Both the position numbers and the translations under genes were made by a program. The notes beneath the pieces were generated by a model that saw only the letters and a list, made by a program, of their open reading frames with translations, ran no database searches and was not told the origin of the DNA. Source: a virus. Taken from it: DNA of 23,606 nucleotides. The stretch spans positions 1 to 23,606 of the IMG/VR virus record IMGVR_UViG_3300035698_011422, one strand, 5' to 3'. The stretch's first letter is position 1. The number at the start of each line of letters is the position of its first letter. Of the stretch, positions 18,713 to 22,146 are shown in pieces.

Positions 18713-21501
18713 TCACTGATGCACAGACGCTGGAAGTAATCCTTCAGTTGAAGGACCAGCTCACGCCGGGGCTGAACAAGGCCGCAAGTAACGCAGGTAA
18801 CGCGGGTGGTGCAGCGGCCAGCATGGGGGCAAAGTGGCAGAAGACCGGCCAGCAGATGACCGGCGTCGGTAAGAAGATGACGATGGGCCTAACGCTGCCT
18901 ATCGTGGGGATCGGCACTGCGATCATTCGCACCGGGATGATGTTCGACAAGGGGATGCGCAAGGTCAAGGCGCTCACGGGTGCGACGGCTGATGAGTTTG
19001 CCAAGCTGCGTGGCCAGGCTAAGGAGCTTGGCTCTACTACGGTGTTCACCGCCACCCAGTCAGCGGAAGCCCAGAGCTTCCTTGCTATGGCCGGGTTCAA
19101 GACAAACGAGATTCTAGGCGCAATGCCAGGTGCGCTATCCTTGGCTGCTGCGGGTCAACTAGACCTAGGGCAAGCTGCCGACATTTCAAGCAACATCCTC
19201 ACTGGCTTCAACCTGGAAGCTACGCAAATGAACGACGTTGCCGACGTACTGGCGAAGACCTTCACGAGCACCAACACCGACTTGGTACAACTCGGCGAGG
19301 CAATGAAGTACGTCGCTCCGGTTGCGGCTAGCGTGGGCCTATCCATCGAAGGGACTGCCGCTGCTGTAGGTATGCTGGGGAACGCCGGTATCCAGGGCTC
19401 GATGGCTGGTACTACGCTCAGGCAGGCGATCAGCTCTATCCTCAACCCGTCTGATGCCGCTGCGACCGCAATGGATCGCTTGGGGCTCTCTGTGTTCGAT
19501 GCTGCCGGGGAGATGGTCAGCCTACCCGAGATGCTAAAGCAACTCGAAATAGGCATGGAGGGAATGACAGATGCCCAAAAGACAGCCGACCTGATCCAGA
19601 TATTCGGGCAGCGTGCCGGGCCGGGGATGGCCGCGCTACTTGCCCAAGGCTCGGACGCCTTGCAGCAACTAACAGATGATCTAGGTGAATCTGGGGGTGA
19701 AGCTAACCGGATTGCCGAAGAGATGATGACGCCGTGGGAGCGGATGAAGAGTGCCATCGAAGGGCTATACCTGGCGATCAGTGACTCCGGCCTGCTGGAT
19801 CTGTTCACAGATCTCGTCAAGTCACTCGTCCCGGTGATCCAGAAGATCACTGAGGCCGACCCGAAGATGCTCAGGCTCGGTGTAACCATTGCCGCTGCCG
19901 CTGCCGCCATCGGCCCCGCCCTGATGATCATCGGCAGCCTGGTGAGCGCGATCGGTACTATCGGCCCTGTGATCGGCGCAGCTGTAACTGCCATGAGTGG
20001 CCCCTGGGGTTGGGCTATCGCGGCTATCGTGGTGGGTGTAACGCTGCTCATTAGCAACTGGGACACAGTCAAGGACTGGGCGCTTACTAACTTCCCAGTG
20101 GTCGGCAAGGCCATGCAGACGGTTCAGGATATTTGGAAGGCTTTTACTGGCCCTGACATGAACGAGTTTGTAGGGCCAATGACGGAAGCTCAGCAACGGA
20201 TACTCAAAGTACAGACAGTATGGGAAGGGCTCAAGTTGGCATTCGGCAAGGGTGAGATCATGCCAAGTGCACTTCCCGAAGGCGACAACTTTCTTGGCCC
20301 ACAGGTCGCCGAGTACACCAAGGCTGAAGAGATGGCCTTGAAGTTCCGCGAGACCTGGGCAGAGGTATCTGGGAAGCTGATAGAGATATGGGACAAGGTG
20401 AAGATGAAGGCGCGGGAGATCTGGCAGGTTGTTAGCGCTGAGATAATGGAATTGATGCAGCCGGTGATCGACTGGTTTAAGGAAAACTGGCCACTGATCC
20501 AGGAGGTTGTTAAGAAGGTCGGAGATAAGATTAAGGCATGGTGGGATGCATGGGGGCCTGCTTTTGCTTCAGGTTTCAAACTGCTGTGGGACGGCTTGGT
20601 GGGTGCACTCAAGATTGTATGGGAGAACATCAAGCTCATAATCAAAGTCGGGTGGGAGATCATTTCCGGCATCCTCACTGTAGGGATGCAGATATTCATT
20701 GGTGATTGGGAGGGAGCCTGGAACACGATCAAACAAACCGCTGCTGATATCTGGGATGCAGTCGTGGAGTGGTGGGAAGGCGTATGGCCCATCTTTACGA
20801 AGACCTTTGAGACACTGAAAAAAGATGTAAGTCAGTTCTGGAATGACATGTGGGATGGCATCTGGACTACGGTAAAGAACCTGGGAGCTGAGGTTGTCAA
20901 GAAGTTAGGCAAGTTCGGTAGCGCGGTACTCAAGCTATTCGGCATGGTCGACAAGGAGGTTGTCGGTTCCTCGATCTGGCCGGATATGTGGAAGGCCATC
21001 CTTGCCGTCACGGTTGAGTATAGCGACCTAGTAGAGGAGCAGGTTGCCCAAATGGGAACCGAAGTCACCGGCGAAATGCAGAGCGCCCTCAGCCAGATAT
21101 TCGCCATCCAGAGCGCCCTCTTCGCCGTCGATGGCACGGTGGTCAACATCGACGTGAACATCAACACGTCGGGGATGCAGGAGTTCATCGACCGTCAGGC
21201 GATTACTGCCGGGTTCGCCTCTCCGCAGGAGACGGGCTACGCTGCCCTCGATGGTGCATACAACCGTGATAACCGTTCGGTGTGGGACAAGTTCAATGAG
21301 TACGCTAAGTCCGGGGGCGGTAGTATGCCCGGCCTGTTTGGTGGCACGATTGCTGACGGGGCAGGTGCGCTAACTAATGCCCAGTTTGCCGATGCGATGC
21401 GCGGCCAGGGAACAGGCGGCACATGGGCTGGCGGCTATTCTGGCAGTGGCGGTACACAGTATGAGTATCAAGAATTAGTGCCTTGTGTCGGGGATGGTTG
21501 A
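18709..21501 (+). CDS. Tape measure protein (main part, to the first in-frame UGA)
   Basis: This 930-residue protein sets tail length. After a helical start, FDKGMRKVKALTGATADEFAKLRG (from about 83) opens a TP901-type tape measure core that runs to about residue 330 (STTVFTATQSAEAQ, GTAAAVGMLGNAGIQGSMAG). A long hydrophobic block (about 390-447, Ala/Gly/Ile/Val) could cross the membrane during DNA entry. It is followed by Trp-rich helical repeats (about 560-770; DWFKENWPLIQEVVKK, WWDAWGPAFASGF). The UGA at 21499 falls inside a Gly-rich stretch. The same frame continues as protein-like sequence to 22146, through one more UGA. The full frame would be 1145 residues. The ATG overlaps the chaperone stop. 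Confidence 0.9.
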   Translation: MITDAQTLEVILQLKDQLTPGLNKAASNAGNAGGAAASMGAKWQKTGQQMTGVGKKMTMGLTLPIVGIGTAIIRTGMMFDKGMRKVKALTGATADEFAKLRGQAKELGSTTVFTATQSAEAQSFLAMAGFKTNEILGAMPGALSLAAAGQLDLGQAADISSNILTGFNLEATQMNDVADVLAKTFTSTNTDLVQLGEAMKYVAPVAASVGLSIEGTAAAVGMLGNAGIQGSMAGTTLRQAISSILNPSDAAATAMDRLGLSVFDAAGEMVSLPEMLKQLEIGMEGMTDAQKTADLIQIFGQRAGPGMAALLAQGSDALQQLTDDLGESGGEANRIAEEMMTPWERMKSAIEGLYLAISDSGLLDLFTDLVKSLVPVIQKITEADPKMLRLGVTIAAAAAAIGPALMIIGSLVSAIGTIGPVIGAAVTAMSGPWGWAIAAIVVGVTLLISNWDTVKDWALTNFPVVGKAMQTVQDIWKAFTGPDMNEFVGPMTEAQQRILKVQTVWEGLKLAFGKGEIMPSALPEGDNFLGPQVAEYTKAEEMALKFRETWAEVSGKLIEIWDKVKMKAREIWQVVSAEIMELMQPVIDWFKENWPLIQEVVKKVGDKIKAWWDAWGPAFASGFKLLWDGLVGALKIVWENIKLIIKVGWEIISGILTVGMQIFIGDWEGAWNTIKQTAADIWDAVVEWWEGVWPIFTKTFETLKKDVSQFWNDMWDGIWTTVKNLGAEVVKKLGKFGSAVLKLFGMVDKEVVGSSIWPDMWKAILAVTVEYSDLVEEQVAQMGTEVTGEMQSALSQIFAIQSALFAVDGTVVNIDVNINTSGMQEFIDRQAITAGFASPQETGYAALDGAYNRDNRSVWDKFNEYAKSGGGSMPGLFGGTIADGAGALTNAQFADAMRGQGTGGTWAGGYSGSGGTQYEYQELVPCVGDG

Positions 21502-21684
21502 GTCAAAGGACAACCCAGTTTGGGTGCGAAACATTGGTTTGATACTAACGAAGGAATTGACTCTGAAAAGTATATGCCCACCGGCCAGACACGCGAGGAT
21601 CCGGGATCACTGCTCCCCGGCGCTGGGCTTGGTTGGACAGTCAAGGGGATGGGCGGTGACGATGAATGCGGCCCCGGTGGTTGA
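21499..21684 (+). other. Two in-frame UGA codons in the tape measure frame
   Basis: UGA at 21499-21501 and 21682-21684 interrupt one continuous frame. Between them lie exactly 60 sense codons whose translation looks natural (KHWFDTNEGIDSEKYMPTGQ, GLGWTVKGMGGDDECGPGG). Both stops sit in the same 8-nt context TGGTTGAG. Possible explanations are regulated UGA readthrough, sequence or assembly error, or true termination with a downstream separate gene. Confidence 0.6.
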
Positions 21685-21729
21685 GGGACGGATAGCGCCG
21701 CCGGTGGCGGTGAAGCAGCTGAGACCAGC

Positions 21730-22146
21730 ATGAAGAAGAAGGGATTCGACCTCGCTAACCTATTCTCTGAGTCCTTTGGTAGGCAGGTAGGGGACGCGTT
21801 CCAGTCAGGTGATTGGAGCGGGGTAGCCGATGCCTTGCAGCAACAGATGAGCCAGCTGTTCTCCCAAGTATTCGCAAGCATAGGGCCATTCGGTGGGTTC
21901 CTTGGGGGGATCGCGGGTAGCCTGCTCGGGGGTATCTTCGGCGGGGGCGGCGGGGGACGCCAGCGCGGGGACTCTGCGCAGCACCCGGTGTACACGAGTG
22001 ATATTAATGCAGCGCGGCTGATGACCGAACTCCTAAAGGCCACCAAGGCGCAGCTAGCGATGACCGCAGCTGCCGCCTCACGCACAGCACAGGGCTTCAC
22101 TGCGGACGGTGTGGCCGATCAGCTTGAGGGGCTGGCACTAGCATGA
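21730..22146 (+). CDS. Tape measure C-terminal segment (138 residues from its ATG)
   Basis: This frame is in phase with the tape measure and resembles its C-terminus: FDLANLFSESFGRQVGDAFQ, then SGDWSGVADALQQQ, a Gly-rich hydrophobic helix (GGFLGGIAGSLLGGIFGGGGG), and a final helix (NAARLMTELLKATKAQLA). Gly-rich hydrophobic ends of this kind are typical of tape measures. The ATG at 21730 has no good ribosome-binding site (only GAG upstream), which argues against independent initiation. A frame-2 ORF (21485-21733) ends overlapping this ATG by 4 nt, so translational coupling is an alternative. In-frame protein sequence also continues back to the second UGA (GTDSAAGGGEAAETS). It overlaps the next gene by 4 nt. 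Confidence 0.7.
   Translation: MKKKGFDLANLFSESFGRQVGDAFQSGDWSGVADALQQQMSQLFSQVFASIGPFGGFLGGIAGSLLGGIFGGGGGGRQRGDSAQHPVYTSDINAARLMTELLKATKAQLAMTAAAASRTAQGFTADGVADQLEGLALA

Follow-up and report, generated by a model that had tools for sequence, protein, structure and literature searches.

The 23,606-nucleotide window analyzed here (positions 1 to 23,606 of IMG/VR virus record IMGVR_UViG_3300035698_011422) encodes a tail tape measure protein, identified by its match to Pfam family PF10145 (PhageMin_Tail; E 7.6e-54, 183.1 bits against a curated cut-off of 33.2), and matched by many PHROG tape measures as well. The first open reading frame (ORF) of this gene (18709-21501, 930 amino acids) is terminated by the TGA at 21499-21501; the same frame continues beyond this codon and through a second TGA. 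We describe evidence that this frame is almost certainly read through at UGA, and that the residue inserted is most probably selenocysteine (Sec), directed by hairpins resembling the bacterial selenocysteine insertion sequence (SECIS). The features of the locus, including related sequences from other viral contigs (L numbers), are as follows:

18709..22146, plus strand: tape measure gene with two internal UGA codons; decoding of both gives 1145 residues
21484..21486, plus strand: Cys codon TGT, five residues upstream of UGA1 (C-VGDG-U)
21499..21501, plus strand: UGA1, candidate selenocysteine 931, known from the window genome alone
21502..21681, plus strand: segment between the UGAs, 60 codons, assigned to the frame by frame scores
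21513..21525, plus strand: SECIS-like hairpin 1, ACCCA-GUU-UGGGU; UGA1-to-loop spacing 16 nt
21667..21669, plus strand: Cys codon TGC, five residues upstream of UGA2 (C-GPGG-U)
21682..21684, plus strand: UGA2, candidate selenocysteine 992; aligned UGA in L002/L014/L017 and L021, motif also in L051/L181
21685..22143, plus strand: Gly-rich C-terminal domain 3' of UGA2, 153 codons; ~50% identity to L002, 36% to L021
21696..21712, plus strand: SECIS-like hairpin 2, CGCCGCC-GGU-GGCGGUG; UGA2-to-loop spacing 18 nt
22144..22146, plus strand: true UGA stop of the tape measure, lacking a SECIS-like hairpin; ATGA overlap with the ATG of the next gene at 22143

An initial annotation, made from the sequence alone, had proposed that the frame beginning at 18709 stays open through both UGAs up to 22146, that the two codons share one context, and that UGA is a true stop for at least a dozen genes in the window; each of these proposals was borne out. 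In addition to the ORF coordinates, codon usage supports the tape measure frame, clearly after UGA2 (+0.31, versus -0.28 and -0.17 in the other forward frames) and weakly between the UGAs (+0.11 versus -0.10 and -0.21); on these frame scores, an 82-codon ORF in another frame (21485-21733) was rejected as the gene. Both internal UGAs sit in TGGTTGAG, because a GGT Gly codon precedes each. More genes in the window end in UGA than in any other stop codon (14 of 26 counted gene ends, or 13 when 21499 is excluded), and since UGA terminates 13 other genes, the standard code applies, with no genome-wide reassignment of UGA (code 4 or 25).

UGA2 is shared with relatives. L002 (one sequence with L014 and L017, recovered from three metagenomes) and L021, which was found in viral contigs by a two-sequence alignment of the C-terminal domain, are tape measures with 42-47% identity to the window protein over its N-terminal part. 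Both carry a UGA at the position aligned to UGA2, in the context CGPGG-UGA-G, followed by in-frame codons homologous to the window C-terminal domain (168 in L002, 148 in L021); homologous protein therefore flanks this in-frame UGA on both sides, in phage contigs whose G+C content ranges from ~51% (L021) through 58% (window) to ~65% (L002). The presence of an aligned UGA and a homologous C-terminal domain in such diverged relatives marks UGA2 as an old, kept feature, and the variation at synonymous positions of CGPGG among them indicates that constraint acts on the peptide. TGG or GGN, which the initial annotation had suggested seeking at these codons in homologous tape measures, is not what L002 and L021 carry at UGA2. 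As a single query, the window C-terminal domain had no match in viral contigs, and neither this domain nor that of L021 matched anything in known phages. The L025-L027 matches turned out to be other proteins.

The same motif occurs in a second tape measure family. A search of viral contigs with the codon pattern TGYGGNCCNGGNGGNTGAGG yielded 72 matching stretches, and every match in which 500 or more open codons precede the UGA and 148 or more follow it is a tape measure. Among them, L051/L099 belongs to PF20155 (TMP_3), not PF10145, and comprises 865 codons, CGPGG-UGA-G, and then 319 in-frame codons (in the longer record); the L051 sequence was also recovered from another metagenome, as L181. 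The UGA is thus kept in at least two different sequences, aligned in the window, L002 and L021 and within the same motif in L051/L181. The N-terminal parts of these UGA-bearing proteins are normal members of their families; ordinary PF10145 and PF20155 relatives, in contrast, lack internal UGAs, and Cys is nearly absent from their final 450 residues. The closest relative of L051, L182, has neither UGA nor motif, and allowing any residue in place of Pro in the pattern gave no further case. A slightly narrower pattern, with which we also looked for hosts, matched cellular genomes 101 times, never with long flanking frames and never with a frame of at least 500 codons before the UGA; these matches are chance background. 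Separately, CGPGG-C-G, with Cys in place of the UGA, was seen in unrelated phage proteins (L313, L327 and L286, all three lysozyme-like by eye; L316/L322; and L307).

The phage carrying L021 has another gene that may encode a selenoprotein:

L376:8883-11126, minus strand: portal-MuF gene of the L021 phage, in-frame UGA at 9771-9773, with Cys two residues upstream and a GGU-loop hairpin downstream

This gene encodes 451 amino acids, the junction ..YLETCG-UGA-GVPSHR.., and a further 296 amino acids. In the window, the homologue (10050-12254) is a single ORF without interruption, and a continuous tblastn alignment of the two spans the UGA (36% identity, 751 columns), with homology on both sides of the in-frame codon. 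The site was first picked up with a Cys filter and later again in a scan blind to Cys, which recovered four candidate sites and two others.

A Cys accompanies every candidate UGA, five residues upstream in the window, L002, L021 and L181, and two upstream in the L021-phage portal. Such residues are otherwise rare here: Cys is missing from the final 450 residues in 68 of 71 window-related tape measure ORFs, and L002 and L021 are among the three exceptions.

Downstream of each UGA lies a potential hairpin. The published model of bacterial SECIS elements specifies a loop of 3-9 nt, a stem of 4-16 bp, a minimum free energy (MFE) of at most -7.5, a G within the first two loop positions, and a spacing of 16-37 nt (PMC13188914). 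The loops predicted by RNAfold are GUU (UGA1), GGU (UGA2), GGA (L002), GGUCU (L021), GGU (L376 portal) and CGUGUC (L181), so that five begin with G and L181 with CGU, all at a UGA-to-loop spacing of 16-18 nt. Five of the six sites satisfy the whole published model (MFE -8.0 to -21.4); judged by four SECIS features, both window sites show all four, and L181 shows them only in a non-minimum fold. In L021, GGUCU occupies +22..+26, which is the loop position in Escherichia coli fdhF (checked against the fdhF sequence). The six stems have little sequence in common, with pairing in all of them. No such hairpin is found at the stops at 22144 and 22995, and an Rfam search of the region returned a chance match only.

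We compared these hairpins with those at other UGAs of the same phages, using a set of 279 UGAs in 155 kb, each preceded by at least 60 open codons and followed by at least 15. Hairpins with a G loop at the expected position are more stable at the six sites than at other UGAs (Mann-Whitney P 3.4e-7), an equally stable one being present, depending on the site, at 1 to 22 of the 273 others. Shuffling synonymous codons in the downstream region gave a combined P of 1.9e-5 over six sites (2e-5 to 4e-4 in a five-site version). The P values of both tests are somewhat optimistic because the loop window was set after the first sites had been seen and because some sites are related.

We favor selenocysteine as the inserted residue because it gives a single explanation for the UGA, the nearby Cys, and a hairpin of this loop and spacing; the product would then, with good probability, be a bacterial-type selenoprotein made by host machinery. 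Trp and Gly, both of which the initial annotation considered to fit, are rejected in favor of selenocysteine given the Cys before and the SECIS-like hairpin after each UGA. Several observations nevertheless weigh against selenocysteine. UGA1 has no counterpart in L002 or L021, no homologue spans it, and its hairpin is the weakest of the set (-4.5); decoding of this codon as selenocysteine is favored only slightly. The CGUGUC-loop hairpin of L181 can form, but differs from the predicted minimum-energy fold, and at single sites the synonymous-codon P values are 0.014-0.082, making each hairpin modest on its own. A Cys-containing homologue at the UGA position is the usual supporting test for selenocysteine; narrow-pattern searches found no such tape measure homologue, the region being missing from ordinary relatives. 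No tRNA-Sec was found in the phage records, all of them possibly incomplete. In the L021-phage portal, the UGA lies in a segment inserted relative to the window protein, in the linker between two domains that many phages encode as separate genes, so that a split of this gene in two is conceivable. Finally, the window portal contains, at 12135-12152, CGPGG followed by TGG (Trp) and then CGG, its codons being nearly identical to those of the tape measure (TGTGGCCCTGGTGGTTGG versus TGCGGCCCCGGTGGTTGA), with no matching hairpin; this site is unexplained, and may reflect chance, a decayed site, or a hint of Trp.

That hint bears on an explanation in which a near-cognate tRNA, most likely that for Trp, reads the UGA in a programmed, hairpin-stimulated manner to set a ratio of short to long tape measures. 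A UGA with a 3' hairpin can promote readthrough, as in alphaviruses (PMC8310308), the window portal has Trp within nearly the same codons (CGPGG-TGG-CGG), and two product lengths would be sensible for a tape measure. However, although it would explain the UGA and a hairpin, Trp readthrough does not account for loops that start with G[G/U] at SECIS spacing at five sites (CGU at the sixth, L181), for the fdhF-identical loop position in L021, or for the Cys near every UGA in otherwise Cys-free proteins, and two lengths have no obvious use for a portal protein; we consider it unlikely. The initial proposal of two tail-protein forms stands as regards readthrough of UGA, which is well supported, while the production of two lengths as its purpose is possible but not the best reading.

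Less probable still is that UGA2 is a plain stop, with the C-terminal domain made separately from the ATG at 21730 or by reinitiation. Potential starts do exist, including this ATG and a GTG two codons past the UGA in both L002 and the L021-phage portal, but they are not conserved: the first possible start in L021 is codon 49, within the conserved domain, and L181 offers only a GTG at codon 7 and a TTG at codon 24 before codon 138. As the initial annotation had judged, the ATG at 21730 has no good ribosome-binding site, the sequence preceding it, AGCAGCTGAGACCAGC, containing no Shine-Dalgarno motif. Moreover, every case preserves the reading frame, the residue following UGA2 is a conserved Gly, and the window portal holds both halves in one ORF. 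Sequencing or assembly error, which the initial annotation had seen as the main rival, or gene decay, is the least credible explanation of all: for UGA2, error is excluded by the recurrence of this UGA in diverged relatives and in several separate metagenome assemblies. UGA1 is known from the window assembly only, but it too has a Cys five residues upstream, a SECIS-like hairpin, and a coding-like open frame on both sides.

If the UGAs encode selenocysteine, each internal UGA would be followed 16-18 nt later by a SECIS hairpin, to which host SelB with Sec-tRNA(Sec) would bind so that the ribosome inserts selenocysteine in place of terminating. The resulting tape measure would be 1145 residues long and contain two loops of the form C-x4-U, namely C-VGDG-U and C-GPGG-U, and any shorter forms would be by-products of termination. 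GPGG is a turn-forming peptide; the turn could therefore bring Cys and Sec together to form a selenenylsulfide ring next to the Gly-rich C-terminal segment, such a ring or a redox switch being the likeliest role.

Known bacterial selenoproteins with a bacterial SECIS, of the type of E. coli fdhF, share with the tape measure an in-frame UGA, an intragenic hairpin 16-37 nt downstream, a G[G/U] loop, and a Cys near Sec; their families are mainly cellular redox enzymes, in contrast to this virion structural protein. Viruses are known to encode selenoproteins made by host machinery, namely the glutathione peroxidases of the poxviruses molluscum contagiosum and fowlpox (PMC8310308). Unlike the phage tape measure, these are captured cellular enzymes of animal viruses and use eukaryotic SECIS elements. 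Viral readthrough of the Q-beta A1 type likewise involves a UGA within the frame of a virion protein, but inserts a standard residue, whereas the SECIS-like hairpin and Cys of the tape measure point to Sec. Translational recoding in tail gene clusters is represented by the P2 tail-assembly chaperone E/E+E' (PMC3091744), where a small neighboring gene undergoes a -1 frameshift, unlike the decoding of UGA within the tape measure itself. The terms phage, virus and tail are all absent from a 2026 review of the prokaryotic selenoproteome, and in the open-access literature we found no bacterial-virus selenoprotein, nor any selenoprotein among virion structural proteins; as far as we could find, this would be the first selenoprotein reported from a bacterial virus.

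With respect to hosts, comparison of the portal protein with ~400 genomes from the phylum of a Desulfoluna genome and ~400 from the phylum of a Chloroflexota genome gave a best identity of 32%, and no portal match in these sets has a stop codon inside it. No comparable case was apparent from the annotations of three phage records with related portals, in which no scan for in-frame UGAs was made. Other features recorded in these phages are an ARAGORN tRNA call with an odd four-base anticodon, cacc, on an L002-type phage contig (L372:9830-9905), and a window gene (6502-7041) with a formyltransferase N-terminal domain (PF00551, E 1.9e-21).

Together, the two tape measure families and the portal-MuF protein of one phage likely represent a phage group with selenocysteine in its virion proteins, in which host SelB would place C-x4-U or C-x-U redox loops. 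Gene callers would split such phage genes, and CGPGG-UGA-G with its hairpin provides a sequence tag for finding more cases. If this interpretation is correct, it raises the question of what role a selenol plays in a tail tape measure; the selenium supply of the host would become a requirement for virion assembly or DNA entry, and infection would be tied to host selenium metabolism.
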